Shown here: in pieces, positions 8,618 through 39,913 of the stretch
How the letters are laid out: every line of letters begins with the position of its first letter
Numbering within the stretch: the first letter of the stretch is position 1
Source: Ptychodera flava
Lineage: Eukaryota; Hemichordata; Enteropneusta; Ptychoderidae
Length of the DNA: 64,000 nucleotides
Direction of reading: 5' to 3'
NCBI RefSeq assembly: GCF_041260155.1
Contig: NC_091932.1
Location: 46,159,629-46,223,628 of the forward strand
Position numbers and translations under genes: made by a program
The notes under the pieces: generated by a model
What the model saw: the letters and a program-made list of their open reading frames with translations, nothing else
What the model was told of the DNA's origin: nothing
Database searches by the model: none

Positions 8618-8621
8618 TTAA

Positions 8622-9068
8622 TAATGCTAATCATCCTCAATGAGATACTATCATTGAATACATACATAATTTATAATAATTTGCATTCATGAATGTCATT
8701 GCATTGTACTTCAGACATGTACCTTGTGATCTAAAGACTACTCAGATTACCGGGATTTCCAGTCAGAATCTACACAGTACAACTTGACATAATAATTACC
8801 AATGGTAGTACAATCTATCATCAAATAATAAAATATCTTACTAACAACACAAATGAATAACATTTTCAGAAGTGTCTTTCTATGTTTCAAAATTTACATC
8901 AAAGTAATTAGAATAATGTATTTATCAACTCAGATAATAAATATTTAAAATTGTTTGCTTCTTACACCAAATTATACAACTGCAAAAAGAAAAGATACCT
9001 TACACATGATGGTTGCATAAAGACCTTAATTACTAAAAGACTACCCGAGGTATTTTTTTACTGTAGAC
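8622..9068. other. Intergenic AT-rich sequence
   Basis: Nothing recognised. Confidence 0.3.
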
Positions 9069-9705: not shown

Positions 9706-12032
9706 ACAAATGTATTGTACAAGCACTGACATGGTAACACAAGGTTGTATTTTTATGTCTTGTGTTGGCAGTCATAATGAGAATTTAATTTTTTTAAATT
9801 TGTTAATACATTTTTATAGTTGGTACACTCAACATACTTTTTTCATGAGTCCACTTATTTACTTTCCAGACACGCTATTACTTTTTTGCAGGAATTGTTG
9901 ACCACCTCGTCAAAAATGTAATGGTTCATCCGGAAAAAGGCGGTATCAAAATGCCTTCTCAACATTAACATTTTAAAGAGTTTCATACCGTCTCTTGATA
10001 GGGTCAAAAGGTCAACTGTACTGTCATGAGGTTATCAATGCAGCATAGAATCGTTTAACACTGTATCATTGCTGTGATCATCAGAAAATGATATATTGGC
10101 AATTGGAATCTTATATTTTGGTATTTTGAGCCCTTTACTTCATTCATATCAACATGGAAACAGATTATCATAAAGAATGAGATAAATTTGAAAAAGTTAA
10201 TGTTAAATACTGGATAGAACTGAATGTTTATCTTAGTGGGAGTGTGAAATCTACCTGAATCTGAATCCGAAAATGGCAAGCAATGTGAGATAAAGTCTGA
10301 TCTTTGCACCCCATTTCTACAGCCTGGCTGCATTGCTCATGAAAATAAGGTCAGGTATGGGCTTTTGTAAGCATGGCTGTCATTGGTCAATAGTACAAGC
10401 GCAGTGATTGCATTGAATATAATTACAACTTGGAGCAACCTAGATTTCATTTGCCCATTGAGTAATTTTACTACCTCCATGGTTTCCTGAACCAAGCATC
10501 CTATGTTGACGTTGAATGAAAAAACCATAGACGATAATTGTCATTATCATTTCACCACTAAATGCCATAATAGAAGTAAAGTGTGAGAAACTTTGAAGTG
10601 AAGCCGTGCTATTAACTTCAATGTTCGATGCTTCATCATTTAATTTCTAAGTTTGCCACAATACAAATGTGCTGATCACATGATATTGTCAGGTGACTGT
10701 GCTCACTAATATGCAGTCAAAATTCTGACTAAAATGGTGGCCCATGCCCTGACCCTAGTTTCATGAGCAGCACAGCCAGCGTTAGAAATGGGGTAGGGGA
10801 CCAGATAATGAATCTTAGTTTGCATGTATATTTATGTGAATTCAGAATCAGGCTACAAAACCTTTACTGATATTGAAGGTCAAAGAACATTAGACAATGT
10901 CAAAAAAGAGTTTATGAATGTAGCATGCCTGAATGCCAGGCCTCACTCTGGGAGAATTCAGGTTGTTTTTGTGAAACAAATGCCATTTGGATCTGATGTG
11001 CCACCCTGTATCAAGCAAATCTAACCCACATGCGTTTCTCGACATGCCGACAAATAAATGTATATAAATCTTGCGTTGTCATATGCAGAATGAATTAATA
11101 TTACTGCCAATTGTAGTGCGCATTTGATAATGAGATATACATGTCTTAATTTAGTGGACAGTTTGTTTCAAAATCTGTTTCTCAAAACATGACTGTATGG
11201 GTAGATTATTGGTAAAAAATCGAAAAGTATGGTTTGTATGATGTATATGTTAACAGTTTCCGCATTTACCATGGTGCGCTATATCTGTTTACCATGGTGC
11301 ATTATATCTGTCTGTTACTGTGACAATTACTGCATTTTAGATTTCAAAAGAGAAGTTTAGCAAACACACAGGATTAGTCTTTTTCCTAGTAGCCATGGGA
11401 GTGATCAGGGTTAGAGTCACAGTTATGGTACAGAGCTTAGAGACCTGACTTGAAGGAAAACTCAGTTCACAGTTATCAAAGGTTTGTGTCTTCTTTTGTG
11501 CTGTCAGAAATTGGTCAGAGCACGGAGGAATATGTATAGAGAGATGTTCTCACACATAACTCAATGGTCAGAGTAGCTGATGTTGGTTGATGTAGTATTT
11601 GATATAAATGTATGTAGACACTGTACATCAAACAATTTGTTTGTGCTCACAGACACAGTACCATGTACTGACAGAGTTTTCACAGACCTGTGCTTACACA
11701 GAGCTTTTCAACCCTTTTACCATCATTTTTTCATCAAAACCAATGATTATTGAACCTGCTTTACAGGGAACTAGGAGTGAAAAAATTAAAATGCTGGTTT
11801 TACAAACCATAGCTTGCTGTTTTAAAGTTTCCCACGCTCGATTGTTTTTGTTTTGTATAAACTCTACTTCTTGACACCAAATGGCATTCTACAGAAAAGT
11901 ACGCATTGTACATGTATTTGTAACTTAATTACAATATATGTACCCATGTTTATGGAAGTTACCATCAGAAAAGAACATTGCTGACAGTCTTCCAGAATGA
12001 GGCTGACTATTTTGACCAATCACACTGCACGT
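9706..12032. other. Intergenic, 3' flank of AGPAT5
   Basis: Includes the AGPAT5 3' UTR just below 12033. Short open frames only; nothing else assigned. Confidence 0.35.
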
Positions 12033-18602
<6,570 letters not shown>

Positions 18603-18885
18603 AGTTGTTAAATAAGAAAATGCGGGCTTCTTTCAAAACAGAGTACTGTAAGTTGCTATGCACGACCCACGTGTAGCGGTAGCGCGTACAAGCACGAACG
18701 GTGTCCTCTAGCCTCGATGTGAAATGTGAGAAAGGTCAAAGGTTAAAATGTGGTGGCGTTCGCATATTCTTAGCAATAATGGCTGCCCACTTATCGTGAA
18801 CACGCGGTCGCTCTTGGTGTAACAGTTTTGCTCAGTCGTCGTCCTTTACTGGTAAGTGTTGGATATTAGGGAAGGAGCTGTAAAG
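18603..18885. promoter_or_regulatory. Probable bidirectional promoter between AGPAT5 and RBM34
   Basis: Only 283 bp separate the AGPAT5 start codon (minus) from the RBM34 start codon (plus), so both transcription starts must lie in or near this gap. It is richer in CpG than its surroundings and has a CACGTG E-box at 18668-18673. A YY1-like AATAATGGCTGCC lies at about 18774-18786. No TATA box is evident, which is usual for housekeeping pairs. Inferred from layout. Confidence 0.6.
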
Positions 18886-20139
18886 ATGAAGAAGGCAAAG
18901 AACAGAACTAAACGGAATCAAAAAGGTAAACAGCATTCAAGTGGAAACGAAGACGTTCAATCTTCGTCCCAACAGTCCACAGCTCCGTTCGGTCAATATG
19001 CAGTAGGTGGCATCGCCAGCCTGGTTAGCAAGTCAACACACACTCCACGAGGTATTGGCATCAGCGAGAGGGCTTCGTCTACGAAATCGTCCAAGCTTGA
19101 ACAGCTGTTTGGTCAGTCACAACAGCCTTTCAACACTGTGATACCTTCCCCAAAAACAGCAAAGGCAGTGTCGAAAAACAAGCGCTCTAAAGCCTCTATC
19201 GACAATATCGAGCAAACTGAGATTGATCAGGTGGAAGGTAAACAAATCGTGAAAATTCCCGATTCTTCCCAACTGAAGTTAGGAAAATCGTCGAGGAGAA
19301 ACAAGTTAAAACAGAGCCAGGTGTTGCTTGACCGAGAACAGGGTCTCCGGAATGCCGAAAAGACATCGATTCCGACCAAGAGGAAGAAGAAACTAGATAA
19401 CAAGGATGACGACGAAATTGGCTTCGCCAAGCACAAGGAAAAGAAGGTAAAGCCATCCCCAAGAAACCAAGAACAAGATAGTAGAACCATATTTGTTGGT
19501 AATGTACCTGTTAGTATTACCAAGAAGGATATCATGAAGCTTTTTGGAAAGTTTGGTGAAATAGAAAGCATGCGACTGCGGTCAGCAGCTCCGAGCACCC
19601 TCAACTTGCCCAAGAAAGTCATTATGATACAGAAGGACTTTCACCCTGACCGGAGCGGTATGAACGTGTACGTGGTTTTCAAGGAAGAAAAGTCTGCCAG
19701 GAAAGCCCTGAAGTGTAATGGAAAGGAATTCCGAGGACACCACCTTCGAGTTGATCTTTCTTCAAACACAGATAGACATGACCACAGGCGATCCATCTTT
19801 GTGGGAAACCTTCCTTATGAAGTAGAAGAAGAAACTGTCAGGGGACATTTTGAACAGTGTGGCAGTGTTCAAAATGTAAGGCTTGTACGCGATGGTAAAA
19901 CCGGCATGGGTAAAGGGTTTGGATACGTGCTCTTTACTGAACCAAGTTCGGTAGAGTTTGCCCTGAAGCTGAACGAAAAACGCCTGAGTGGCAGACCTCT
20001 GAGGGTAAAGAGATCCGTAAAGAAGGAGAAAAAGAAAATGCCAAATCAGGCTGAAAGGAGAATTATGTACAGAGAACAGAAACGTGCAAAGTCTGCGTGG
20101 AGAGACAAAAAGAAAAAGAGAAAGATTCGTAAGACCTAA
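18886..20139 (+). CDS. RBM34: RBM34 / Nop12-like nucleolar RNA-binding protein, intronless
   Basis: Homologue of human RBM34 (about 430 aa) and, more distantly, yeast Nop12, a nucleolar factor of large-subunit rRNA maturation. The product is 417 aa from ATG 18886 (an A lies at -3). The frame is open 30 nt further upstream but has no ATG there. Residues 1-199 are a low-complexity Lys/Ser-rich tail with several basic nuclear-signal-like patches. RRM1 spans about 200-290 (RNP2 IFVGNV; RNP1-like NVYVVF) with the long loop typical of RBM34. RRM2 spans about 302-378 (RNP2 IFVGNLPY; RNP1 KGFGYVLF). A very basic C-terminal tail follows, rich in KKKKRK. The whole gene is one exon, whereas the human gene has many. 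No poly-A tract or flanking duplication marks it as a recent retrocopy. An ATTAAA hexamer at 20280-20285 may be the poly(A) signal. Confidence 0.95.
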   Translation: MKKAKNRTKRNQKGKQHSSGNEDVQSSSQQSTAPFGQYAVGGIASLVSKSTHTPRGIGISERASSTKSSKLEQLFGQSQQPFNTVIPSPKTAKAVSKNKRSKASIDNIEQTEIDQVEGKQIVKIPDSSQLKLGKSSRRNKLKQSQVLLDREQGLRNAEKTSIPTKRKKKLDNKDDDEIGFAKHKEKKVKPSPRNQEQDSRTIFVGNVPVSITKKDIMKLFGKFGEIESMRLRSAAPSTLNLPKKVIMIQKDFHPDRSGMNVYVVFKEEKSARKALKCNGKEFRGHHLRVDLSSNTDRHDHRRSIFVGNLPYEVEEETVRGHFEQCGSVQNVRLVRDGKTGMGKGFGYVLFTEPSSVEFALKLNEKRLSGRPLRVKRSVKKEKKKMPNQAERRIMYREQKRAKSAWRDKKKKRKIRKT

Positions 20140-22690
20140 ATGAAGAGATAAATAGTATGTTAAAGTAGAAAGTAGACAGCACGTTTGAATTCTACTGTTG
20201 TTATGTTTTGATCCGTATCAATTTTAGTACCCTTCACCATAAACAGTAGAGTGTTTCTCTAGTATGTCTCAACTTGCGAATTAAAACGTTATACTCTACA
20301 AACTCTCTGATTGGTTGATTGCTTATTGTGATGTGTGTTGAGAGGTGTACATTATCAGCCTACACATCGAGGTCGCCCACCAATTATATATTCAATGAGT
20401 TTTACTTTGGCTTCGTAGCCTGTTGAGTGTTAATTTATTTTGTGTATGTGCGTGTGTGTGCAGGGAAATACACGATAGAGATTTGTCAAGTGCTTGTTGT
20501 CCCTAGCATACCTTGAATGGCCATTTTTGTTAAAAACAGGACAGTAATTTCAGTAGAGTACCATCCTATAAAAACGTTACCTCCCCCTCTCCCCGCATGA
20601 TGATGATTTACGTTGGTCATGCCCATGTCTAAGTATCCACTACCTCTCAGCTTGGTGGATCAAGGCTAAGTAAACTGACGTAGCTGGTGATTATGCCAGC
20701 TTTCTCTTTGTAACGTAACTCGCAAGGCTGCTTTGCAACTTAGGGCTGTGTTCCATACAGTTAGCAGCCATGCAAATGAGTGATCGTGAAACTCAACCAG
20801 TGAACTGACCACCCTCTTCCTCATCAGAAAATAGAAAATAATTCTGTCAGCAGTTTTCATGATTCTTACATCACCTTACATCATGGTGTCTTGTTAATCA
20901 TGGTCCCTCTATCCCCGTGTATGAATCAAGGTTTTATTGCGGATTCTCTTGCCGTCAACTGTACAAGCAATTATACGAGTTCTCCTTAGCAGAGTTTGAC
21001 AAGTTTACAAAACACTGCATTATTTGCATATTCTGTTGCTGTGACAATACATTCTTTAGTATGGTTGTTAACATGTGAATATGTTGTTTAAAAAACAGGG
21101 GTGGCCCAACCCTCAAATTCCCTGTAGAGAACCCTCTACAATAATAATTGCCACCGAGACGATTTGCACAGTTCACATGACAAAGAGTTGAAGTTTAGTT
21201 CTTGATACCACCAAAATACTAAGTCCAAGAGTAAGATCTGAGGCTTGTCAAGAACATGGCCTCGGTATTTCAAGTTGATAACATGAGTGTTTCTTGATAT
21301 AATGTGTTATTCTTTTCTTTTGCCAGTCCAAAACGTCTAGGTATTTGTCGGCATAAAAATGAGTAAATTCCTAGCTTACCTTATTTGATAGCAAGATGAA
21401 AATTTCATACCAAATGTCGATTTTAGATCATGGCAGGAGGACTGCAATATCCCGGTAGCTTGTGTTGTGATAGACTCCATAGCTTGATTCGAAACTGAAT
21501 ACATACATTCTTATTTCTCGTTCTTTGTCATGAAACTTGTTGGTTGTAAACTCTGCTCACGTTAACGAAAGGTCGATATTTTCAAAATTCCATTTTCGTG
21601 CTTCACCTCTTTTCTGTGCTCATTCACCTGCTGTTTTTATAATGTTCGTACGTCAAGGATGTTGCAGGGATCGGGAGACATACTCTGCCGAGGTACACGT
21701 TTCGTCGAAATGATTAATTTTATATCAAATTTCATGTAAAGAGCAATCGTATGATAGTCCGACCCTTTGATATTAAGGTTTTGAATAGTTCTGCTTTGGC
21801 GATGATTCCATCGCAGGGTCTAGTGTTTGTAGTCTCCAACAGGTTCGAAAGTTCCCATAAAAGCTGGCAATTACATGAGATGTTGTTGTTGTTGTTGAGG
21901 CTAGGGCGCCCTCAACATTATGTCGGTGCCGATTATTACTCTTTATGGAATGAGACCAAGGCTAGCCATCATGATGAGGCGAAGAAATAAAGCATTGAGC
22001 GTTTCCTTTGGCTGTTGAAAGTAATAATGTTATCATGATTTGTCACAACGGATATCGAGAGCGAAGTGAAACCTTCCTATAGTTATCACTCGTGACAAGG
22101 TTGTTATTAAAGGACAATTTAAAACTTTAATGCATGTACATATAAAATTTCTGCAGCTTTATATATACAATAGTTTATTTGTTGTCGTGACCTGGAGCTG
22201 TTTTTATTTGTAAAGCTAACAGAATTGCAAGACGCTATTTAAGATAACCTGTACACAGACAGCACACAGGAAAGTAATGAACAATAATACTACACAGAGA
22301 TAGTAAGGGAGTAGCTATCACAGGCACTCATGTACTGACACAGTTCAAGCTTGTGTTGTAAGAATGCTTGATATGTTATAGTTATTTATCATAACCAATC
22401 AATGAATGTATGCTAGCTATCCCCGTTGAGTTGACCTAACTTTCTACAGCTTCTCTATTGTCATGTCGATGAAGATGATAACAACGTTATTATTTAACGT
22501 ATTTTAACGTTGATCATGGTACGAAGTCATCTTGGTCTTGGTGGATTCCGAAGACTGCACAGATTTAATATTATTAAGATTTAATATTCATCAACCTTCG
22601 CTTAGCTTGTCTTTATAAATGTGTTATTCAATGAAATATTGTAAACTGATTCAAAAGTGTAGGCTGTCCAACGCAGTGGAGCTCAACTGA
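20140..22690. other. Intergenic between RBM34 and the T-AR gene
   Basis: Begins with the RBM34 3' UTR. Apart from scattered short frames nothing is seen. Confidence 0.35.
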
Positions 22691-22880
22691 AGGTAGTATA
22701 CGCGCCTCGGAAGTAAAAGACTTAAACTTTTGCTCTAACTTTCCACAAGGAAACTTTCAACCATTCTCTTAAAAAATTAGATTCAAAGCATGGGTCACAA
22801 TGCAAAGTTTAGTACTGGAGAAACAAATTGCCTAAAATTTACCGATATTGGAAATTCAAAGCGTATTCTACCTGAACGAT
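22691..22880 (-). mobile_element. Family D MITE copy, reverse orientation
   Basis: Starts AAGGTAGTATACGCGCCTCGG and continues with the complement of the family interior (AGCATGGGTCACAATGCAAAG). The far end is diverged. Confidence 0.6.
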
Positions 22881-24145
22881 GAGAGAATCACTTGTATGGC
22901 ACCGAATCATCACCATCTAAGGTATTTGAAACGTCACTTCAGTGGATCCAAATATCGTGGACTCGGGAAACACTTTGCTCACTAATCTTCAAGGCAAAAT
23001 AAACTGATGACAGGAGCCTCTGGACAACAGGCAAGGAAATCATGACATCAGTTCTCTTCGTCTCATTGTTTCCTGTAAACATTTCCATCATATTCATTTC
23101 TTTAATATTTCTTTACTTCCATTTTCATGACTGTGTTGTGTTAAAGTCAAAGAAAGAATACTGAGTCAGGAAGTTGTCATTGAGGTCTAAGAAAGTGATA
23201 TTTCAGCGAGTGTTTGTCCATAAATGACGAAGGCGGACGATGTTGACGGAAGAAAAAAATCGGAAGAAAGAGTAAAAGTGGTATTGTTTGTATTTTTCGG
23301 TTTACTTCCTTTGATTTGCGAACCTTTAGTTTGCTTTTACTGATTCAACGTCAGCGCGTTAGTAGTGTCAGTTCAATAGATACTAAAATCAAAGAAAACA
23401 TTATGGCCTCTCACGAAATCGTTGAAAATGAGTCAGAGTATGAATAATCAAAATACATTTTTTTTTCAATCTGAATGCGAGGAATGGGCACACATCTGTG
23501 AAAAATGTGAAAAGGCTTCTGAAAAAAAATTGGTGATCAAAATATGTAAAAAGTCAGTTGCCATGTGGGTCTGCTGTCTCGCCACTGTTGAAAATATCCT
23601 TAGATATCTATTGCCAGGAAATCTCGTGTCATAAAAAAATCTTACTGGGTAAGCTAGTAAATCTCCGAAATACCTATGAAATTTTCCAGATAGGTATTTC
23701 TTTGTGTCTAGATAACAAAACATGTTTGGGAAGGGTCGGTGTACGGACTGTTCGTTTTTATTAGCGGCGTACGTCACCATCTTTGCTCGCCGTGTTCGTG
23801 TACACTTATGCAGTCGTAACTCGACTCTTGCGTCGACTGCGAGCTGAGTACGATCCTGACGACGCCTGCCATAAAATGACGGAATTACTACAGGTATTCG
23901 AAGTTATCACTTTTCAATCAAAGGATTGTCAGCAAGTTCAAACTTATCTATCGCTGACATCGTTGTCGTCATCACCACCACCGTCTTTGATCACTTCTTC
24001 CGCGGCGGAATAGCCCCTCTCATGATAGATAACATTCTGATATGAATGCTAGGTTTTGAAAAACATTCTTACTCAAACTGTCGTAGAAAACAGTCATGCA
24101 ACATTAAATTCTTCAAACTTGTGTCAGTCACGGGTTCCCTACAAA
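22881..24145. other. Intergenic, 3' flank of the T-AR gene
   Basis: The 76- and 70-codon frames on the plus strand lack ATG starts or motifs. Nothing assigned. Confidence 0.3.
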
Positions 24146-27047
24146 TCATGAATGTTCATTAACGTTCTCATTCCTATCAGTTTTGTCTTGTTGCTGTAGG
24201 TCTGTTGCCATGACAACGATCCTATAATTTGCAGGTCTAATATTGGCAAGTGGTTTGGTTTTCTTAAATTGTAGCGTTTTTAACTGTTCTGACGCATCCA
24301 ATGGTTTAAATCCTGCTTCTGCCGCACATTCCTGTATAAGCGGGTTTCCATGGAATCCAATGAGTCTCTTGTAACCATGGTGACGGGCAGTTTGTATACT
24401 CTCTGTAAGAAATTCACAACATATCTTGAATAGTAGAAAATAAAGTGAAGCAATAAAGGATTTCCACTTTGAAACTAAGCGATCTCATTACCGTTTAACG
24501 AGAAACGAACCAGAAACGGTTTCAAACATGGAAAATTTGCTGAGTTATTCCTCCTAGAAATCAGTCTGTGTCTGTGTGTCTGTGTTCGCTCTCAAAAGTA
24601 CATACATTTGAAGATAACTAACTACATGTCTTATATGAACCGTGTCAGTGTGAAGTTTGACAAATAGGCAGAATAGTACATCGTAATAAGAGGGACAATC
24701 AGGCTATAATCAGCAAGCAAATAGTGAAAATGACATGCTTCAAGAAGGACGTACTGCACGAATAGTAAAGGATTCATTAAGTTGTCAAGAGGGATGCACC
24801 ATTTTGGGGATTTAAAATCAACTTAGTCAGTACGGCATTGCCCTGCTGCAGAAGTACAAGTGACGAAATATATGTTTGTGCAGTAACTCCAGTAAATAAG
24901 AATGCCGATTTCATTGTAGGGCATAAAGGACGATTAGTTACTGGTATTATTCTTTCTTTCTCATTCAAAAAGGTATTCTCATACCTGATATTAATGATCT
25001 CTGAAGCGAGAGTTGAATGACCGGGTCTCCGATGATGTCCACGGCGGATAGGACTTGACATGCCACTAATCCAGAAGACGTTACCTCAAGGTTTTTCCTG
25101 TGTTTCATTTCAAGAGAAAACAGTGTTTGAAGGTAAGCACTCAACGGGAGGACAGGTATTCCCTCGTGACTTGGATGACACTGATAACAAAAGTCTGCGG
25201 ACAACATGACTCCTCTGACGTCACCACTTTCCCTGTGACGTATGAAAAATGAAAGCGAGTGACACTCGTAGTTGTTGAACAATTCCCTCAGCGCAGACGC
25301 AATGAAGACTTTCTTGTCCGCCTCTTCCAAGTCTGATGCCAACACGAAGGGTTCAACTTTGACGAGAAATCTTTGAGCAAAATCAAAAACTTTACTAAGT
25401 TCAAGTTCAGATGCACCGAGAAAGGAAACTACGTCATGATCACATGGAAGGTGTGTCCTGGTTACGTCACACGTTCTCTTCTTTTCTATTCCATACACTA
25501 GTTCATACGGAGTGTAATATTTCCGATGCATGCCAGCAACAACCTCACAAAGATTTGACGCTTCACAGAAATGCTCAAGTTCTATTTCATATCCTCGTTC
25601 ACGAAGTTTTCTGACGGCCACGGCTGCAGTCACTAAACAAGAAAAAGAAAGACACGTTATTTGTGGCCTGTACAGCATAAGTTAAAAGTGTTTCCATTCC
25701 GTGGATGAGGGAACTGAGACGCGGTTCTGTGATTTCATTTAAAACTTTACAAAATTGTTGACGCAGTATCTAAATTTTATGCAGCATTTCTGTACAATAA
25801 ACCGTATCCCATCTTACCTCAGTAATAGTATTTCGGTGAAGTTTACGGATGATTAACGAATAGCGACGGATGATATTGGCTTAATTACGTTAAACCACAG
25901 ACATATTGTCCTTCAATTGAATCATCATTTGTATATATTGAATCTAAGGTTTAACAATTATCTAACTATTTGAAAATCCCTTACAATTTTGGATAGGCGG
26001 AAGTGTCAAGGGAAATATGCGTTTGGAAAGCAGACATCACGTGATGGGTGAAGAATTATTATAGTTCGACTACACTGATTTGAACGTACTTTCCATAAAA
26101 GATTACCTTCAATGTCACGGATAGAATTGCTGTTTTATCACGCTATAATTAATATGCCTGACCTGTCCTGAGTCTGAGCGAAAACAACAGAAAGTTTGGT
26201 TTTTTTCTCAAACTTTACTCCAGAAAACTTTAAACACAGTCTCTTTGATGATCAAAAATACAATGGTCATCGCGCATATTTTTGGTTTGGGGAGGCAAAC
26301 TACATAAATTTACCGGTATTTGAAATTTAAAATAAACTTTGTTTACTATATGGGTAAAATTAAGCTTAAATTTTCGAATTTCACTCCCGCAACAAGCTAA
26401 AAAATTCGTATGCTCCATTCAACAGGCCTAGAAGTGAGTTTACTTACAGCATGAAACAGGAAAATTATCGTCATAAAATTAGTGTCCGAAAAAATGTCAC
26501 AGAGGCACGTTTTCTGCCATGAGTTTCAAATTACAGCAGGCAAATAAACGAACGAATAAGAAAGGATATGGTTAAAAATTAGAATTCTTAGCAATTACTT
26601 TTAAACTCTTGTACTTTTTAGTTGATAATGTGACCGAGTAGTATCTCTTTCTTATATTCAAAAACCAATACCCTGGCGTCCATCATAGGCATGTAGCATG
26701 ATGTAAGGCCGACAGTAATCAAATACGTGGGTCACGACATCAAAAATTTCATTGCTATTTTTCGCTACTAAAGAAAATTTACAGCAGTTTCACTTCTCAT
26801 TTCACTGATATTCGCTTGACGAAGTCACCCATTCTTGATGCTACATCTTACCCAAATTCCCGCCGATTTCAAAGAAATTATCCGTCAGGTCCAGGATGAA
26901 GAGATCACGTGCGTCCACAGCTTGCCGAACAACATCGAGGAGGACCCCTTCTGGTACACTCCCTTCCTTGCTTATAGCTCCATGACAGCCATTGGACAAT
27001 TCCTTCTCTCCTTCCGTACAAGCTGACGAAACTCCAGCGGACATCAT
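24146..27047 (-). CDS. Ebony-like carrier domain plus GNAT-fold (T-AR) protein, three coding exons, carrier serine replaced
   Basis: Coding exons 27047-26852, 25632-24985 and 24402-24146 (stop TGA) join in phase (GT-AG) to give 366 aa. Residues about 33-108 are a peptidyl/acyl carrier (T) domain: the FFEIGGN block at 58-64 is the core before the 4'-phosphopantetheine serine, followed by VRKLRERGYEIELEHF. Residue 65, where the serine should be, is Leu (TTG, 26855-26853). Residues about 160-366 look like a GNAT acyltransferase fold (FFIRHRESGDVRGVML, then ARHHGYKRLIGFHGNPLIQE). In Drosophila Ebony (A-T-AR), which couples beta-alanine to dopamine or histamine, the C-terminal AR domain has this fold, and T is joined to AR as here. 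The first coding exon starts after an AG at 27084, and a TGA in frame before the ATG argues against coding sequence further 5'. No full adenylation domain is seen upstream. Alternatives: a degenerating ebony paralogue, or a repurposed protein. Domain order is seen; the Ebony link is from remembered sequence. Confidence 0.8.
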
Positions 27048-27083
27048 GTGTCTATGTAGTTGTCCTTGTTTTCAAACCACTCC

Positions 27084-27244
27084 GCTGAAACACAATTTAT
27101 AATGAGTGTGAGAACAAATGGTCGTACATACCTAAGAGAACGTAACCGAATACCCGAGGGCGCTTGTCTTAATTGCTTGACCTCCTCTACAGGCCACGAC
27201 CTGCAGACATAGTTCAAAGTCCTCATCGAAGTCGTTGGCTCCAT
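27084..27244 (-). other. Possible 5' untranslated exon region of the T-AR gene
   Basis: A good acceptor (TGTGTTTCAG) ends at 27085, so the first coding exon has 37 nt of leader before the ATG pair. Just upstream a CTTAG/GTATGT donor sits at 27132/27131, which would leave a 47-nt intron, short for an animal. None of the three frames of the upstream piece joins openly to the carrier-domain frame, so it is read as untranslated or unrelated. Confidence 0.3.
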
Positions 27245-27469
27245 TCAGTTACTGTCTGTTAGCGCCGTGCATTAAAATTTTATACGACAGATTGATATGT
27301 TAATTATTACTCATGGTGACAGGAAAGATTACGGGTCGACAGAAAATTATAAGTAACACACACCTGTCTACCATGTGTTTGGCTGGGGTATTCAACTAGC
27401 AACCATGAACTCGTGATTTTAAACAAGCATCGTGCTCAGTCTTGTTACCAGAAGCACGTTTATAAAATA

Positions 27470-28722
27470 TATGCCTACACATGTCACCCAGCCATATTTT
27501 AGACACTAAGCTTAATATACAGAAAGCCAGGAGAACGATGTATTCACTTCTCGGATCTGGTCTACATGGTATCAACGGTCTAACTCCACTGGCCTCCTTC
27601 CACTTAATCAACACATACGTCTTACCCGTCCTACTGCATGGTACAGAAGTTTTCATCTTTAATAAGCTGCACATTTCCATTTTTGAAGATTTCTATAAAA
27701 GAATTCTCAAACAAATTCTTGGCCTACCGGACAGAGTGGCGGATCCTGCTCCATACATTATTCTTGGTGCACTTCCAATCGAAGCGTTAATACATCTTAG
27801 AAAATTCACCTTGCTACGTAATATTTGCGTGACTCCAAATAGTATTCTCTACGAGATTACAATCCGACAGGTTGTAATGCAAGGATTCTCTGCCAACAGC
27901 TGGTATGCTGATACTCGCTCATTGTTATCTAAATACAAATTACTTCTATACATCTTATCATGAAGAACAAGCCAACCAAGACTTATTGGAAAAATCTAGT
28001 AAAGAAAAGTATCTACAGTTACTGGTCAGATGTCCTTTACACACAATCACAGTTTTATTCATCATTGCGTTATCTTTCCACTAGAACACAACCAACACTT
28101 CATCCACACTCCTCAGTGACAACTGTTTCTTCTGCTGCCTACGATATTCGGACTGTCCCTATTCGTTTAAGACTCCTAACGGGAACATACACTCTTCAAA
28201 GCAACCGTTCAGTATTTAACCAGTATACAGTGAACCCAACTTGTCAGCTGTGCCTAGCTGCATCTGAAGATAGACAACACTTTATTTCATCCTGCAATAG
28301 TCTTCGTCACATCCGGACAAAATACATTGCGCTTTTACAGAGTAGCCTCTGTCATCGTTGTTACACTAACTTGACTGATCTGTGGTCCAATGAACATGCC
28401 TTGACCTGTTATATCCTGGAACCTACTTCAGTGCTTAATACAGCCAGCTGCGATTGTTTTTATAAACAGGAAAAGTACATTAGACAGTACCTATATGTGC
28501 TCAACAATGCAAGATTAGATATCTTAAATCGCTGAGAAGACACACCAGAATCCAGAATCCAGCATCAGGAATCCTGATAGCAGCAGTCTTCTTTTACCTT
28601 TTTATGTTCTTATTTGTGATGTATCTGTTTGTATTTGTTTGCTTTATCTTTACTCCACAGTGGAGGTGCTCCTATACAAAGGAGGGATTTATGCATACTG
28701 AACTGAACTGAACTGAACTGAT
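27470..28722 (+). mobile_element. 5'-truncated non-LTR retrotransposon (CR1/L2-like), C-terminal half of ORF2
   Basis: Two overlapping open stretches (27481-27963 and 27960-28535, one frame change between them) encode the region after the reverse transcriptase. They contain KARRTMYSLLGSGLHG, NTYVLPVLLHGTE, FYKRILKQILGLP and a CxLC...HF..SC zinc-knuckle-like motif near 28240-28310. The 3' end is a short tandem tail, (GAACT)n at 28700-28721, as in CR1/L2-type LINEs. The reverse transcriptase core and everything 5' of it are absent. The element lies opposite in strand to the T-AR gene and directly abuts the A3-like relic at 28723-28790. Confidence 0.8.
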
Positions 28723-28790
28723 GGCAGAACGAACGCCGATTCACCTGCAATGCCTGAGCGATCTTCATGGACTCCGGTACACCTGGCGAT
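28723..28790 (-). pseudogene. Possible relic of an adenylation-domain exon (A3 motif), cut by the LINE
   Basis: After a good acceptor (TTTTGATTCACAG, minus strand) an open stretch reads SPGVPESMKI then AQALQVNRRSF. This recalls the A3 core of NRPS adenylation domains of the Ebony type (S-T-G-V-P-K-x-V-x-I then N-R-L-x-F/W), with T to P and K to E changes at key places. It stops at the LINE tail. It lies upstream of the T-AR gene on the same strand, in the order expected for A-T-AR. The match is short and made by eye; chance similarity is possible. Confidence 0.3.
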
Positions 28791-31700
28791 CTGTGAATCA
28801 AAATCCCGCGAACTACTCGACAAACAGAATTCGACATAGCCTGCCAAAGTCTTCAAAAGTTTCGAAAATGATGAAGTGGACGCTTAACAAACAATGTGTT
28901 TGATTTTGAGTATTTGAAATAATGTACTTTGTATTGTATAAGTATGATGTCACCTTTCTATTTCGAACTTTACCCATGCATTCTTGAATAGGGGTCGAAG
29001 ACGAATGTGGCTTACCTTTAGTCTATCTGCACGAAAAGGAGACACTTCGATTGAGGAGAACAGTACTAAACACTACCCTCCTTGTCTTTGTTCTTACGCC
29101 TTCATGGTGTTTTCAGTGCCAAGTGATTATGTTGCGCTGCAACTTGAGCATTCTCTGATGGGTCGTAACTTCACAGTGAAGTACCATTAATCATTAAGGA
29201 GTGACACGCAGCCTTAATAAAAACAAAGACGAACTTTGTGAGCTCTTCAGTATTGTGAACAGCGACTGTTCACGGTGCTGTTAAATTGATGCCCTTCACA
29301 ACAAACAGTAGATTCTCTAACAGGTACTGACGGTTAATGTTTATGTATGTTTTGCCATCATTGTGAAAATACTGCGCATAGCTACCTATTCATTTATATC
29401 ACAAAGACCACAAATCTCGCCACTGTATGTGATGACCCCGATCAATCTGTCCTTGAACTATTTTAAGTTTGGCTTCAAGGGAAAAAAATACTTATACTCA
29501 CCTTTTTTATTCACCTGTTATTACAGACAAGTATAAGGCGAAGCAGTTTTAAAGGCGATTAAATTGTGTCTTATGCTTGTGACAACTCGTTTCGCGCGAC
29601 TAGAAAGGTCTTTCGTCAGACAGTTGCAGATGAATTAAAGGGGACTTGCACCAATTTACAGAACGTTCAGTTCACTCTGTTATCCGAAACCCGTATAATG
29701 AAGTACGCTGTATGATGGATGTACTCCACTCGGTATAAGACTGGATGTCCCGACTGTCCCGAGGCAGTGTGAACTATGGTTTCGAAACGCATGGAATTCT
29801 TGACAACCAAGCTGATGCTGAACGGTAGACAGAATACTTGCTGTCTTGCGCAGAATTGACACACACGGACGTGTGGATTGCCCTTATCAGCCTTATATCA
29901 TTTAATGAACTGTCTGTCCCGTGGGAATTTCGACGAGGCATAAATTTGACTGTGCGCGAGTCATTCATACCTGTCTAAGACTTAAATATCTCCTTTGAAT
30001 AATCTTTTGTCGTTTTTGACAGCTCTGATTTTAGTAAGCGACAGAGCTTTAGCTGTAAGGGTAAACCAGGCTTGCCGGGCAGCCTTCATTATTTTCTTGT
30101 CTGAATTAGATTTTACACAAATAGCTGTGAGGAATACTACAGGGGCGGTCAACAAAGCTTTGATTTTCAATAGGAAGTGTTCGCAACGTTGGAACTGGCT
30201 ACGTTGAAAACGCCGAGCGAACGGGTAGGAGAAGTATACATTTGTTTTCAGGGATTTTCCGATTGGAAGGGCAATTGACAGGGAAAAAGCAGTGGAGAAT
30301 TTTCCTTATGGATTGAGGGGGTGGGGAACACTGATGGGCGGCAGCCCGAGGAAGAAAATTTTCGAATCATTGAGAACAGCTTTCACTTTCTCATTCAGTT
30401 TTGAATTTCGTTCGTGTGCAATACGTGCAAAAGCAATTCTAGTGACTAAACCTGGAAATCGACTGGTTGGCTGACACCGAATAACAACCAGTACTTTAGT
30501 GAATACGACTCGAGCACACACACTCGGTACCACTGGCGACAATACTTCCGAAAAACGCCATATTTTTGACACATGGCAGACTGCCATTATCGTAATACAG
30601 TTATTTTAAGTACGTAGGGAAGTTGGCGTCAACAGGTTGCCAAGTACTTGACGGTATCACGACAGACTGACAACAAACGGACTTGTCTATGTTTGTATAA
30701 TAGACCACCTTGTTTGTGTACTTTTGAGCAGGACTTGATTCTTTGAGCAGTGTCGAGCCAAGGAATGTCGGAATTCTTATGGTAATACGCAACTGAAAAA
30801 TGGCATTTTGACACTTCGGTTCATACTTTTAACAGGGTTATTCTCCCTTGTAATCAATGATAAAATATCAAGGGTCAAGGGGTCATCATGCAGTACAAAG
30901 AGGGTCACCATCTTCATCAGGGGTCATCAAGCGAATATTTTAATAGCATTACCTTAAATAACATCTGTTCGGCATTCAAAATGGCCGATATTCTCTGTGT
31001 TGATTCTACTTGGAGAATACAATGTCCAATTTTCAGGAAAGAGCAAAAATACCGTAAACGTCTATTGTCCTTAGCGATGGGTACATTTGCCATTCAGTGT
31101 TATCGTCCAGCCTTAGCTCATCTTTCAATAGCGGTGACAAACGTGATCTTTTTTCGAAGAGGAGAGGCGTAAGCCCACCAACCTATATCTCCAGAAATTA
31201 AAACAGAGAAGTGTGAACTCTTGGGATAAACAGCAGCGACAAGACACGAATATAATAAATTGAGATTCCGCAAATCTGTCCCAGGGATGCATCGTGTTAT
31301 ATACTCGTACTTTACAAAGCGATAACTTGCTTTGCATGTATGCCCATTGCAATTTCCTGCAATTGTTCTCTGTCACAGAAGCATACAGACATGCGCAGTG
31401 TTTCCAAGCTCGGTTCGATCGCGCTGTAAGTTGAACAATATACACGAATGTTCGCAACCCGTACTTTGAGTCTTTGTTGATCTAGATAGAGTTTATAAAT
31501 GAAACGAATGCAAACAATATGTGAATAACCGAATATTTTGAACTCTCTATGGTAAGCATGATTTCATGTCAAGCTAACTTGATATACTTTTCACTCATGA
31601 CAACAGAAAACGTTCGTTGATACGAATCCTACTGTTTCCCTCCCATAATCAATCAAGGATAAAAATATAATCGGGTGCCAAACAATTTTTTTTGAAAAGA

Positions 31701-31869
31701 AGCAAGTGATATCAAATTTATATAATGGTAGGCCTATCTGAAATTCAAAATTGCCGCCATTTCCTCTAGTTTCATTCGATAGGAAAAGATACATGTTCGA
31801 TTTCAATAGAACCATTTCAAAATAGTCTGCATTTTGAATTTATATTTGTCATTCCAGATATCTGTTCCT
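28791..31869. other. Intergenic upstream of the T-AR gene
   Basis: Searched by eye for adenylation-domain motifs on the minus strand. Only very weak resemblances were found (near 29700-29870), which are not called. No gene is supported. Confidence 0.35.
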
Positions 31870-32400
31870 GAGAACGCGCCTCGGGGCAGATATTCGAACC
31901 CTCAAAATTTTACAATACTTTTTTTTGGTCGACCCCTTGCGGATCCTCATTTTGAAGTACATGCGTAGGAACTAAGGTTTCCATGACAATCGAGAATTTT
32001 GCTTTTCCTCATAGTTTAACACTGGAATGGCTGCCATTTTGAATTTCAAGTGTCAGAAAATACTGCATGGGTATTCTGTCTCTCCAGTACCAAATTTTGC
32101 AGTGAACACGATTGGAACTAAGTTCGGATAACTGGATGGTGAAGCAATGTCGGTTTCATCCGCAAATGTAAGCTCATGCTTTTCCTTTTAAATTATACAT
32201 ATGTTTTTATGAGTAAATTGTAATATTGCAATATTCAACTATAGGGTATCTAATACTTTTGAGAAATTTGAAAAATAAGAAGATCAAATTATCCCAAATT
32301 AGTTCCAATCGTGTTACTATGACCCCTGATTTGTTTTTTTATTTCTTAAGGGTATGGTGTTACGTTTTCCCGAGGAAAGTGAAATAATTACTAACCTTCC
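31870..32400 (+). mobile_element. MITE family D copy carrying a family A insertion
   Basis: Starts GCGCCTCGGGGCAGATATTCG. Its interior (ATGGCTGCCATTTTGAATTTC, ACCAAATTTTGCA) is split by 32105-32315, and its continuation (TATGACCCCTGATTT) follows. Confidence 0.65.
32105..32315. mobile_element. Family A MITE copy 1
   Basis: 211 bp with inverted ends AACACGATTGGAACTAA and TTAGTTCCAATCGTGTT. No coding capacity. Inserted in a family D MITE. Confidence 0.85.
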
Positions 32401-32918
32401 TACAGGACGAACTCGAGCATCACTATCTGGTAAGTTGCACTGAAATAAAAACATTGCTTGCTATTCTATTGATTTTAAAAATGCAGTTAAAACCGTCTTT
32501 ACAATCGACGAGGCATAGTGACTTTTGTTCTTGGATAGCCCTTTGCAATATCTTCATCGTGATTTATTCCTTAATTTTTAAAAATTGAAAATAACAATTT
32601 AGCTATTGCTCGTCTTGACCTGGCAGGACATCGGTACATATCCTTGATGGTGGCATCCTTAATGCATCCTCGCTGGATCATCGTATCAAACCAGTTTAAT
32701 CAGTTTCCTCAAAGGATTATGCAATAAATGAAGTGCAACGTTAAACCTAAAGTAATAAAGAATAGTGATACACTGTAAAGTAATCTCCTTTTTATTTGTG
32801 TCTTTCTTGTTCGAATTCTTGAATCAGCGATTTCTGTTGACCAAAGGATCGAATTGGCCATCATATGAAATTATTTAAAATCCATTCTCCTTGCGTAACA
32901 AAACCACCGTGACCAGCT

Positions 32919-33287
32919 TTAAAGGAACTGTAGTTGTAATTTTTGTTCATATTTTCATAATATTTATTCTCTGAAACACATGTTTTGTAAATATATTTCA
33001 TTCTTTTTACCAGGGTGCACTGCCATACAAAGAATTATCCTCGCAAACAGAACACGTTTGATAAAATGGGCAATGTTGTCGTTTACATATGAATTCTTGT
33101 CCGAATCAAAATTTAATTATCAACAATAACATTGGAAAGTGCACATGCACATACAGGCAGTATTGAAAAGTTGAATGTGGGGTATTTCAACATGGTTTTT
33201 GGAGTAGAATTACTGCAGTTTTTAGAACAGATTCATGACAAAAATGCTGCATAGTACCTGAAAAGGTAAGTCTATTGGAGCTTTAAT
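32919..33287 (+). mobile_element. MITE family E copy 4
   Basis: Ends TTTAAAGGAACTGTAGTTGTAA and CTATTGGAGCTTTAA. Diverged interior. Confidence 0.55.
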
Positions 33288-35679
33288 TCGTTCTGATGAT
33301 GAGTCCTGACAGGCTCTATGAACGATCTTCAAGCCCCCCCCCCATGATGTCAGTTTTGAAGGCGAACAGCAATTACGTCACTTAGTTCATGTTAGTAAAG
33401 CAAGCATAGTTTGATTACTCAGTCTGGAGAATGATGTAATATGTTTACTGACCTTTGACATGAACCAGAATAAGAAAAAAACGCAAAAACCTATAAAAAA
33501 TACTATTCTGTCCCAAAGTTGAAATCACTTATTACTGTGTTCGATATTCGTAGATCATAATCAATGTTTAGCTCTTGGATATGTATCTAGTTCTTAGTCA
33601 ATATTTTACGTGACTCAAAACTCGCTATGTACTTGCTGTGTATTGTAGCGACTGTAATTCTAATAACCCTATACATCAGACGTAATCGGTTGTTCAATCT
33701 CCGGGAACATGGTAACGTCCCCATTTTCTACTGTAAGGGCGGCTCAGAAGCAAACAAATGACCACAACTCAATGATTTTTACTCTAAATGTGTGCACATT
33801 CTCCGCCAGTAGAAACGTACGACAGTCTGTGGTTTCTTGATGTGAATGGAACCCATTACCCACAATGTAACACGCTTCCCGAATGCCTTTATTGCTCACA
33901 AACATGTTTAACCCTTCGGAACCGTGCTTCGAATACTTTTTGGGCAGCCTCAAGACGTTTTCACCACACTTAAAAATCTGCTGACGTAAAAATTGCCCCA
34001 GGGAACCGATGAATGGTAGGTTTTCAAAAGCGATATTAACAGAATTACGTGTAAGTATTCTTGATGTTATAAGTGAACAATGCTGCCTCTGTTCATCTTG
34101 CATTGTACTCACGCAGAGGGCGACATTACTGATCAGCGCACACACTTGTGGACACTTGCCGGTATCCTCTAATACTGACTGTTTGTTTAAGAATTTTAAA
34201 GAGACAAGAGACTGCTATTGTCCGTTTTCTCAACAAACGTCATGAATAGACTATTGTTATCTTTTCAGAGTCCATAGCGAGGTGATGAGGCAGACATTGT
34301 TGTGCTAGCAATATAACAAACTTCAATGGACGGAGTGGAAGGCTGTTTTTGTGATATCTTCATATTTTCATGGTCACAACAATGCCACTGTCTCATTGTT
34401 ACTGAGATTGACCTGAATTCACACTTGACGGTAAAAACTGCATGGCACTATCAGGAAAGTAGGTCATGAAACGGTAGAAGCAAGAACAGATAGTCAGATC
34501 TCAGTCTATAGTCTTCAAATTATTTGATCGTTTCATCAATTTATATCACATGTTATCTCCGAGTATGTAAATTCGTTTGTTCATAAATTCTGAAGGTGCA
34601 TTCGACATTGATATGAGGTATATGTTTTGTAGTGTAGTACGCAGGGATAGACGCTGTTGCCGTAGTCAGTAATCAAACCAAGGCTTTGTCCTTGTTGTAC
34701 TCGTAGCCTAGATACGACCATTCTCACACAAGTGCGGCGCACTCTATCATTCTAGTAAGTAGAATATAATATCGCTTTTTGCAAATATCATCTGTGCGAT
34801 AGTTATGATTGCCTATTCTCATAAAAATAAGGCAGACTGCACACTTTAACATCTCTGTGTACACATTGAGGTAAAATAGATACAACTATCTATTATGTTG
34901 TACATGTTGTCTGTTTTTTCCTCCGCATGTTGTTTTTGCTGACGAAATTATCGTTACGTGCCTGTTTTTGTACGAAATACATAATTTCTTGATTGTAATT
35001 CTAAATTAAGGAATTCACCATTAGATCTTTTCAGAGGGTGGTAGGAATGAGGATAAGCAACCTAAAATGTGGCATGTTCATAGCAGTAAACAAAACACAC
35101 TTACAGTGTTCTACTGGTTTTAGGGTTAGCTCTCCAGTCGTGCGCACCTAGATTTTGTAAACTTTACAAGGCTGAATTGTGTGTTTGAGTAATTCCACTC
35201 AGCACAACTTTACTCCTTTCAAATATTGACCAAGAGATCGAAATGGTCAATGTGAGACTCCAGGGAAAAAAATTGGCACATTTATTTAAGTTTATGAGAA
35301 CTTCATGAGAGCTGTAGAATGGTGTTGAAACTTTGGATCACAATTGAATGAAGTAACTCATTTATCTCAGTAATCGACTGCAAGGTTAACAGAGACTGCG
35401 AAGATTAACCGGTGGTTACTTCGCTTTGCCTTGCCCGCATCAAAAATGACACGAAGGGTCAGAGGTCAGGATGCAATGATGCAATGATTTATTTTGTCAC
35501 TGGGTATTCACACACGTAATTCAAACGATAGAAAAAAGCACATGCAATAGAGAAATACTCAGCCTAAGATCAACCAAAAATTACCATTGGATAACTTAAA
35601 TACGTGGTTCCTACAGTGACCATTTTTAGAAGACATGTATAGGAAATAAAGAAAAAGTTACGAACAATAAATCACCGTG
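33288..35679. other. Intergenic, nothing assigned
   Basis: A 133-codon minus frame (33744-34145) has a non-ATG start and no recognisable domain. No repeat family noted. Confidence 0.3.
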
Positions 35680-35891
35680 AACACGATTGGAACTAATTTA
35701 GGATAATTGGATTTTCATATTTTGCAAATTTCTCAAAAGTGTTAGCTGTCATATAGCTGAATATTTCAATATCGCAAATTACTAATAAAAACAAGTGTGT
35801 AATATAAAAAGAAAAGCAGATGAGATAACATTTGTACATTAAATCGACATGCATCACCACCCAATTATCCCAAATTAGTTCCTATCGTGTT
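35680..35891. mobile_element. Family A MITE copy 2
   Basis: 212 bp with ends AACACGATTGGAAC and GTTCCTATCGTGTT; same interior as the other copies, reverse orientation relative to copy 1. Confidence 0.85.
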
Positions 35892-36588
35892 CGTGGCAAT
35901 TGGTCGATACGTGGACCATATTCGTATCTTTTATGTAATTATAATAATGTGACTACATCATCATGTACGTATATATAGACTAAATAATGTTCGGCTGTTT
36001 GTATCAGTCATTTATGATAAATATTATATGGTAAAATGATACTCAACGATATCAAAACCCTTCAGATGCTAAAAGAAAATTTGTTATGGTTTTTAAAATT
36101 CAGCAACACGTAGAAAATACAATATGGTTGACACAACCGATACGTTGGCCTCCTCAATATGAGAAGAGCGCATTTCTGATAGACACGCACTTCTGATAGA
36201 CAGTAAAGTTAAACACACTCGTTCAGACCGACTCTTGACTTATAAAGTCTGACCTAGTCTACTGAAAACAGACGATGGCGTGACGTCATCAGCAGCAGCC
36301 GCAAGTAACAGACAGTCAATAGGTGGCGCGTATCTTGAATGATTATATCGTAAAAGTTAATAATTCATAAGAGAAGTTCTTGTATTTAACGGTCATTTTA
36401 GTTGCACTATGTTGTTATCTCTATTCTACAAGAAACAATATATTATTGCACAGACCACGTAACGCACCTCAGTCATGGTCTTTTAGACAACATTGCGGTA
36501 AATGCTTATTATGGAGTAAAATCTGCCATGTGCTAATCAAGGTAACTTGAAATTCCATTTACTACAAGAATCTTTTCGTATCTCTTTG

Positions 36589-36641
<53 letters not shown>

Positions 36642-37344
36642 ATACTGGAAACAGCAATAAGTCAACGGCAGCAGACTCATGCTGAGATTCCCGGATGTTG
36701 TAATGAACAGGGGCCAAACGTCTGAGAAACTGCATTTTCGGACTTTGCACAACATTAGAACAATAGGTTCACAAGGCGACAATTTAGAAGGGCCTAACAA
36801 GGCAGATCTGATGGCCAGCTTATCAACCATCAATAATGCAGTGGAGATACAGCGATTTAAATGGTAGGAGCGAGTAAAATAGACAGTTTTCAAAGCCGTG
36901 TAGAGAGGACTGGCTGTGTAAGCTGGCCATCTTCACTTCTAGTATATTAAACGTCCCGGCCGGCTGTGGCCGGCCGCCCATGGCATACATTAAGTCATAC
37001 ACATACAACGATTTTGTCGGGAGCTGCTCTGCAGAAAGAAAACTCAATCCCGATGAAATACTAACTTGTTTATGTGATATCAATATTTCATAATTACGAT
37101 TTATCATTTTTAATAATTATGAAAAAATATCATACTTTAGACTATTAATTTCCAGTTGGCATGTGGTGAGAAGTCATATTTACCATCCGCTTGATAAACT
37201 GCACATGTGGGTGTCCTCTATCTTTCCTAGCTTAATGGCGCCATATGATATTTTGACAATTCAATCATCCCTGATTTGGGTTATAGACAATATTTTGATC
37301 CGCAGCTGTAAGCACGGAAGTCATCGTTATGTTACAGAGTTCCC
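35892..37344. other. Intergenic with (CT)n microsatellite
   Basis: A CT run of about 25 units at 36590-36639. Otherwise nothing assigned. Confidence 0.4.
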
Positions 37345-38850
37345 CCAAAACAGAACCAGATATGAACTGAACATGCTCACGTGTTTCATTATATATTGCA
37401 GTTATGTATAAGTTTGAACCTTCGCCACATGTTTGCAACTTCATTGAAAGTGTTATGATCAACATAATGAATAATATTCACCACAGATTGATTCTAAAGC
37501 CAAGTGTACCGGTATATCCCCAATCAGGAAAGTTCATTAAAATATGCAAATTAGGAATTGACTGAAATGTTCACATTAAAATGCAAATTAGGAATTGGCT
37601 GAAGTAAAAATGTTAAATGACTTTCAATAATCTCGTATCATAATATCTTTAATGTACAAAGCAATTCGTCAACTTTGGTCTAGTCAAGACAGATAAATAT
37701 CCTTAATTAGGAAAGTTCATAACATTTGCAAATAAGGAATTGGCTAAATTAAAATTCTTAATGACTTTCAATGTTGTATCATTGTATCTTTAATGTATGT
37801 ACCAAGTTTCATCAAATTTGGTCTAGTCAATACAGATAAATATCCCTAATTAGGAAAATTATATTAAATATTCAAATTAGGAATTGGCTGAAGTAAAAAA
37901 GTTTAATGACTTTCAATAATATTGTTTTATAGTATCTTCAATATATGTAGCAAGATTCATCAACCTCAGTCGGGTCAATTCAGATATATATCCCTAATTA
38001 GTGAAGTTCATTAAATATGTAAATAGGGAATTGGCTGAAGTAAAACTGCTTAATGATTTTCAATAATGTTATATCATAGTATCTTCAATGTACATAGCAA
38101 GTTTCATCAACTTTGGTCAAGTCAATTCAATTCAGATATATATATCTAATTAGGAAAGTTTATTAAATATGCAAATAAGTATTTGGCTGAAGTAAAAATG
38201 CTTAATGACTTTCAAAAATATTAGATCATAGTATCTTTTATAATGTACAAAGCAAGTTTCATCAATTTTGGTCAAGTCAATTCAAATAAATATCCCTAAT
38301 TTCAAAAGTTCATTAAATATGCAAATTAAGAGTTTGATGAAGTAAAAATGCGTAATGACTTTCAATAATGTTAAATCATAGTATCTTCAATATACATACC
38401 AAGTTTTGTCAATTTTGATCAAGTCAAATCAGATATATATCCCTAATGAGGAAAGTTCATTAAATATGCAAATTATCCATTACCTTTTACGTCATCCCTT
38501 AATATCTTTCACAGCTGATATATCTTGGTGTGATCAACATTTGTAGCGAATCTCATCAAATTGTGTGCAGTCGTTGTCAATATATACCTGTTTTTTCTAA
38601 AATCATTAATTATGCAAATGAGCAAAAAGTAAGCAAGCCACACCCACCAAAAACTAATCAGTTCTTGCCATTTGCAAACTGAATCTATGTACCAGATTTG
38701 ATTCTGATCTGATGAGCCGTTTTTGAGATATCGAGCACACAGACAGACAGACAGACGGACAGACACACAGACAGAGACAGACAGACACACAGACAGACAG
38801 ACATCGCTGCGACATATGCTCACGTGTGTCAACACGTGAGCAAAAAAAAA
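37345..38850 (-). mobile_element. Palindrome-headed element H, copy A (Helentron/HINE-like)
   Basis: Reading on the minus strand: an A/T run, a hairpin GCTCACGTGT-tgac-ACACGTGAGC (38841-38818), a CTGT microsatellite (38812-38743) and a conserved segment of about 260 bp. Then six to seven tandem copies of a 149-bp unit (38475-37580), a unique tail and ACACGTGAGC (37384-37375). Similarity to copy B ends just beyond, after CAGTTCATATCTGG. No transposase. The architecture matches Helitron/Helentron-derived non-autonomous elements, by analogy. Confidence 0.8.
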
Positions 38851-39913
38851 GGACTGAGTGTAAAGTTGCAAATAGTCTGCTTAAATGGATGATAAATAAG
38901 GGTTGTGCGTAATGATCGACTGACTCTAATTTAATCTAAAATTGGACCAATTATTTATCAACAATAACCTTGAGCACTATACATATGCCAAATCTCATTT
39001 CGTATAAGAAATGATGCGATGTCTGAGTGGATCGTCGAGCAATGCTCACTTGTGCGTTGACATAAAAATAACAAAAAAGTGTGACAGCTAGCATGCATTG
39101 TGCTTTACAGTATGTGTTCCATTATGCCAGTCACAATTCGTTTCGTATGGACGATGAGAACCGCTTTCTGCATTAAATTGATGCAAATTAGAACAAAATA
39201 ATCGAAATGGTTACATAAAAGATGGAAATAATCCCACATCATCAACCAAAACAAAAAGAATTCACTCTTGATTGTACCACAAAAACATTACAAGGGTTAT
39301 ACCAGAACTGGCAATGCCACAGTCTGTCAGACTATGCTCTACATCACGCTTCGTTCATTCCCATCAGTAATCGCATATAGGCAGAAGAATTATTCAGTTG
39401 TGTGACCCATTGTCCTTGTTTTAAATGCAGAAAAAGGTAATTGTAAGAAGACAACCATAATCAATGACAGTCTGAAGTTTTGCCCCCGACAAGAAGTTTC
39501 AAAGATTTGTGGCACTTCATTCAAAAATGTTACCATGATGAGTGAGATAATTGATGTACGAGAACTTGTGATCACAATACACAGAACAAGATAACTTAGC
39601 GTAGGAAAAGAAGAAACAAACACTTATGGCGTTAACACAGTTAACGTCGTTTTAAAGCTTTTGCCAGATTTATGGTGAGTTTGTTCCAGCAGATGCCTCA
39701 ACATATAGCTTTGATGCTATTTACTTATTTAATGTTCTGAACGTCCTGATAAGGGTTCCAATCTTTCTCTATGCTGATATCACATGCAGGGTTCCACTGC
39801 AGATAACTTTGTCAATCTCAGTATTATGGCGTATTAGTGATGCTAATCATTCGATATCCCATCGGGAAGAATTAGACCGCCAAACTTGGAAGTGATGACC
39901 CTTTTTGTCAATC
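38851..39913. other. Intergenic, 3' flank of the CaaX gene
   Basis: Nothing recognised beyond the probable 3' UTR next to 39914. Confidence 0.3.

Follow-up and report, generated by a model that had tools for sequence, protein, structure and literature searches.

A three-exon gene with an unbroken frame

In the window, the 64-kb stretch of Ptychodera flava DNA analysed here, three minus-strand exons (27047-26852, 25632-24985 and 24402-24146) join in phase into a frame of 366 codons. The first exon (26852-27047) holds the ATG start, about 30 N-terminal residues and the first half of a carrier (T) domain up to GGN-L65; codon 65, a TTG for leucine in the column of the phosphopantetheine serine, lies at its end (26853-26855, minus strand), before the phase-1 donor GTAAGA. 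Intron 1 (25633-26851, minus strand; 1219 bases, GTAAGA...TTTAG, phase 1) leads to exon 2 (24985-25632), which encodes the remaining T domain and most of a GNAT-like half, and intron 2 (24403-24984, minus strand; 582 bases, GTATGA...TTACAG) leads to exon 3 (24146-24402), with the stop codon and the C-terminal GNAT-like part, the one that matches the GNAT A654L and the Ebony AR domain. The three in-phase exons and the 366-residue product had been proposed in an earlier note made from the sequence, and both were borne out, with coordinates, phases and GT-AG splice sites confirmed. An in-frame TGA (27072-27074, minus strand) is the ninth codon ahead of the ATG, and because a splice acceptor, GTGTTTCAG (its G at 27085, minus strand), lies just upstream of this TGA, the ATG exon probably includes a 5' untranslated part. 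Past the stop codon, an AATAAA at 23757-23762 (minus strand) is the sole AATAAA or ATTAAA in the 845 bases scanned. No frame damage was seen in the 366 codons, and no repeats of at least 25 bases were found in 23000-30000.

The stretch left open around exon 2 far exceeds the length expected by chance. It runs for 238 codons (24968-25681, including a few residues encoded by intron sequence at either end), and among 60 simulated 64-kb sequences (Markov-1) none reached this length, the longest having 178 codons. In a codon-usage test trained on two ORFs only, the chosen frame was the best sense frame in each of the three exons and was outscored by one antisense frame each of exon 1 and exon 2; for exon 2 in the chosen frame, 13 of 2000 non-coding stretches did at least as well.

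Several other genes and open frames share the window. An intact plus-strand ORF of 427 residues (18856-20136), which we take to be RBM34-like, encodes RNA recognition motifs (RRM_1, E 5.3e-33). Two minus-strand stretches at 17626-17793 and 13382-13504 appear to be parts of a single acyltransferase gene that is split, with matches to PF01553 (E 6.6e-6) and PF16076 (E 5.3e-12), respectively. A 1168-codon minus-strand ORF (40922-44425), acidic and of low complexity by eye, had no Pfam match at E≤0.01. Close upstream of the three-exon gene, two overlapping plus-strand ORFs (27466-28532) resemble a retrotransposon tail by eye and gave no Pfam match.

A carrier domain with leucine in the serine column

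The T domain occupies residues ~34-100 of the product. Its Pfam match to PP-binding (PF00550), over residues 44-97, reached E 0.0021 and 18.7 bits, under the gathering score of 20.8, though the pairwise and tblastn matches are clear. The closest comparison is with Drosophila Ebony, a beta-alanyl amine synthetase of A-T-AR layout whose AR domain has a solved structure, 6dym. BLASTP against the Ebony carrier, in a provisional sequence, gave E 1e-9 with 19 of 44 residues identical and no gaps, and since this gap-free alignment spans the junction at residue 65/66, it supports the splice between exons 1 and 2. Independently of this provisional Ebony sequence, PDB carriers matched the full-length product weakly (AusA, E 0.037). 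Five bacterial NRPS carriers (L001-L005) matched it by tblastn with E 4e-7 to 8e-6 among the candidate stretches. The five were obtained from prokaryote and virus collections with patterns drawn from the product-Ebony alignment and confirmed by tblastn, and they are the relatives among 587 candidate stretches listed; by eye, all are ordinary bacterial NRPSs. They resemble the window carrier in an FFEIGG(N/D)-type motif and in 16-18 identities over 41-54 columns, and differ from it in that all five have the serine and continue, by eye, into condensation-type NRPS sequence, not into a GNAT. The Ebony-carrier BLASTP and the bacterial tblastn matches together uphold the T domain of the earlier note.

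The serine of the GGxS motif expected in a PF00550 carrier is replaced by Leu65. In the aligned column, serine is found in all six other carriers (Ebony and the five bacterial ones) and leucine in the window protein only; the bacterial pieces had been cut at the GGxS motif, but the serine is there in the uncut translations as well. The FFEIGGN motif beside Leu65 is intact. The loss of the carrier serine that had been noted before therefore holds, both at codon 65 and in the aligned column, as does the observation that TTG is one transition away from a serine codon, at a would-be CpG. On the sequence as it stands, Leu65 should be unable to accept a phosphopantetheine arm, which would leave the protein unable to load its own substrate.

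Could serine be present after all? No contiguous GGxS-type motif that a serine-restoring splice form might use occurs in any frame of intron 1, and the six frames of the window contain no other contiguous carrier motif of this type apart from a chance GGSS at position 51; the scan sees contiguous motifs and would overlook one that an intron interrupts. Alternatively, Leu65 could be an allele or a sequencing or assembly error in a species that normally has serine, in which case the carrier-AR protein would be loaded in trans. The single transition at a would-be CpG fits such an origin, as does the mild CpG depletion of the window (observed/expected 0.75). Sequencing and assembly errors of this kind are rare, however, and the change would have to strike the single essential codon, which leaves this explanation unlikely.

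The carrier by itself does not make the gene an Ebony, given how similarly it scores with bacterial carriers: the window carrier scores 100 against Ebony and 75-95 against the five bacterial NRPS carriers, and the Ebony carrier scores 106 with the bacterial carrier L002, above its 100 with the window carrier.

A divergent second half

The second half of the product had no Pfam match at E≤10. When its last 162 residues (about 190-351) were searched against 177,635 PDB sequences, the single match at E≤10 was the Chlorella virus GNAT A654L (3qb8), with E 0.053 for an alignment of 77 residues that covers the C-terminal core of the GNAT. With the full-length query A654L was found at E 0.12, and two CheX chains gave chance-level matches to residues 103-198 (E 0.72 and 0.78). 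A profile of the product-Ebony alignment retrieved from the PDB Ebony itself, which was part of the input, then carriers only and no GNAT.

Comparison with the AR domain of Ebony gave mixed results. The AR sequence used is identical to chain 6dym over 214 residues. BLASTP between the two AR halves was not significant, and neither was a local shuffle test, whose score was equalled by 633 of 2000 shuffles; a lower gap cost brought this to 17 of 2000, but in a different register. The hhalign score was likewise not significant, being equalled by 12 of 200 local and 120 of 200 global shuffles. Within a band anchored on the carrier alignment, on the other hand, two blocks could be matched: ASALRELFNNYECHSLSFF... 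of the window protein with SDILNDIWNVLVERDLSFV... of the Ebony AR, and DPVIQLSLQ...NPLIQ...KPL with NPRENIACM...SPLTQ...KTL. These two, the best ungapped blocks, come in the same order in both proteins, and their summed score was equalled by 8 of 2000 shuffles (50 of 2000 for the best block alone). As the band was fixed after the alignment had been seen and several statistics were tried, we regard the block test as moderate evidence for AR homology and not as proof. Global alignment to the Ebony AR gave a z of 3.2 (0 of 500 shuffles), with only the C-terminal block in the register of the band, and MAFFT aligned both blocks together. E159 of the product, in VEPF, might correspond to E696, a presumed catalytic glutamate of the Ebony AR; MAFFT places a different glutamate opposite E696, so we draw nothing from E159.

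The predicted structure of the 238-residue open stretch had a pLDDT of 31.6 and gave no usable model, and no relatives of this stretch were confirmed in the prokaryote and virus collections (38 and 1 candidate stretches, respectively). The earlier note had described a GNAT half open for more than 200 codons and well formed; the open length stands, at 238 codons, and the well-formed fold is not established by a weak sequence match and this pLDDT, so the observation is confirmed in part only. We regard the second half as a probable, divergent GNAT domain. That it is specifically an Ebony AR-type GNAT is weakly supported, with the colinear blocks (8 of 2000) and the z of 3.2 on one side and, on the other, BLASTP, the local shuffle test and hhalign, all not significant, and the lack of a Pfam match.

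These results also bear on whether the gene belongs near Ebony at all. A carrier-like domain might be fused with a GNAT from a different family, such as the arylalkylamine N-acyltransferases. In keeping with this, Ebony is only slightly ahead of the bacterial NRPS carriers in similarity to the window T domain and the Ebony carrier is nearer to L002, the AR half alone reaches no significance, and its sole PDB match is a virus GNAT. Yet both AR blocks follow the order seen in Ebony, at a spacing anchored on the T domain, and a GxG loop is absent at the aligned place in both the window protein and Ebony. We consider a GNAT of another family decidedly unlikely; the gene looks instead to encode a T plus GNAT-like (AR) protein that is free-standing and probably of Ebony descent.

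An apparently free-standing gene

An Ebony-type synthetase has an adenylation domain before a carrier with a phosphopantetheine serine. Here the carrier is present with Leu65 in that column, and no adenylation domain was found ahead of it. In the 37 kb upstream (minus strand 27001-64000, three frames), no AMP-binding match was found with Pfam at E≤0.05 or 0.1, and Pfam found no adenylation domain on the minus strand at 9144-24144 or on the plus strand at 27001-42001. The rest of the window (plus strand 1-27000 and 42002-64000, minus strand 1-9143) was covered by tblastn and motif patterns, with Pfam on some of ten long ORFs taken from the 536 of at least 45 residues. The best tblastn match of the Ebony A domain, in a provisional sequence, over the whole window had E 0.59, and the adenylation motif patterns gave one chance A7-like match. 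As a positive control, Pfam scanning picked up the acyltransferase gene nearby through two pieces, 56 and 41 residues long.

The gene looks free-standing, as had been claimed, because of the in-frame TGA nine codons ahead of the ATG and the lack of an adenylation domain upstream in the window. With a stop just ahead of the ATG, moreover, the ATG exon appears to be a real first exon and not a recently severed internal one. The alternative is an incomplete gene model, in which a far-upstream part encoding the A domain is spliced into the ATG exon past its 5' end. There is a splice acceptor just before this exon, and the view ends at 64 kb. Against it are the in-frame TGA between acceptor and ATG, the 37 kb upstream in which no adenylation domain was found and the intervening 1168-codon ORF on the same strand, and we consider it very improbable.

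Acyl-donor route and fate of the gene

Neither the acyl-CoA P-loop pattern [RQ]xxGx[GA] nor even Gx[GA] occurs anywhere in the 366 residues. At the place of the P-loop, the window protein reads VIQLSLQ, A654L reads VTGKGLA and the Ebony AR reads NPRENIACM. The Ebony AR differs from the window protein in carrying [RQ]xxGx[GA] strings elsewhere (RIIGTA and RPFGDA). Since Leu65 offers no phosphopantetheine site and the GNAT half has no P-loop glycines, no route to an acyl donor of its own is visible; the protein seems to be without both the phosphopantetheine site and the usual grip on acyl-CoA.

The reading that we favour, with a probability of roughly 0.4, is that of a retained protein with a changed role. 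The frame would owe its preservation to a GNAT half that still binds amines, a putative activity, and this half could accept an aminoacyl thioester from the charged carrier of another enzyme or act non-catalytically; the unprimed T domain may serve as a fold or docking piece. A more specific form of this proposal, which we think unlikely, is a split, trans-fed Ebony system in which a retained, phosphopantetheine-free pseudo-carrier is fused to an Ebony-type amide-forming GNAT, with the donor coming from another enzyme's charged carrier, or with amines sensed without catalysis.

Close to retention in odds, and a real possibility, is that the gene is a pseudogene at an early stage, a partial Ebony-type copy from which first the A half and later the carrier serine disappeared, the remaining frame being as yet unbroken. 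A single substitution removing the key residue beside an intact FFEIGGN is what such decay would leave; an adenylation partner was not found in the window, there is no P-loop as a fallback, and one altered residue in an intact frame is also expected of a very young pseudogene. Decay is less easily squared with 366 open codons free of visible frame damage, GT-AG splice sites, a poly(A) signal and a real-looking 5' end. A retained, uncharged stand-alone carrier-AR protein would be of interest in two respects. First, it would show how such enzymes are dismantled and reused or, should the gene be decaying, how they die. Second, it would test whether an Ebony-type AR domain takes its donor from another protein.

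Relation to known enzymes

To judge from its sequence, the product is most likely related to Ebony-type A-T-AR synthetases, as a shortened form. It shares with Ebony the order of T and then a putative AR, two colinear similar blocks and the lack of a GxG loop at the aligned place, and the spacings are comparable, with 130 residues from GGN to LSF against 116 in Ebony, and 239 against 221 to the NPLIQ/SPLTQ block. It differs in having no A domain and a leucine in the carrier-serine column, in an identity of 23% over T plus AR with the AR part not significant by BLASTP, and in holding none of the [RQ]xxGx[GA] strings found elsewhere in the Ebony AR. AASDH (ACSF4-U26), which we take to be the animal beta-alanine-activating enzyme with a layout of A-T plus PQQ-type repeats, is similar as an animal beta-alanine enzyme with a carrier domain. 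Pfam found neither an A domain nor PQQ-type repeats in the window product, which sets it apart from AASDH.

Ebony-type enzymes had been called little described outside arthropods, a view now outdated by PMC11214079 and PMC10531068. The flatworm Ebony-like NRPSs (schistosome Sm-nrps and planarian nrps) are Ebony-like enzymes outside arthropods, as the window protein would be, and differ from it in that the flatworm product depends on a working synthetase: the planarian nrps is needed for beta-alanyl-tryptamine, which is reported as a schistosome signal and is linked there to Sm-nrps (PMC11214079). The same source links beta-alanyl amines in flies with pigmentation and the recycling of transmitters, and in flatworms with reproductive signalling (PMC11214079). 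Ebony-clade A domains are reported for annelids, priapulids, hemichordates, nemerteans, cnidarians and Branchiostoma (PMC10531068). Neither a T-AR protein standing alone nor an Ebony-type carrier lacking its serine turned up in the partial literature covered on Ebony outside insects and on unprimed carriers, and PMC8072286 and PMC9151784 added nothing decisive.

Other features of the window

Rfam scans at gathering thresholds and tRNA scans of the window returned nothing. A simple repeat at 36474-36659 (minus strand), which reads as ER repeats, gave a DUF3915 match under the gathering score that is probably spurious. A repetitive stretch at 3238-3956 (minus strand) translates, by eye, into repeats of an F/I/C/Y-rich unit, and a reverse transcriptase fragment lies on the plus strand at 51984-52568 (RVT_1, E 7.6e-9).
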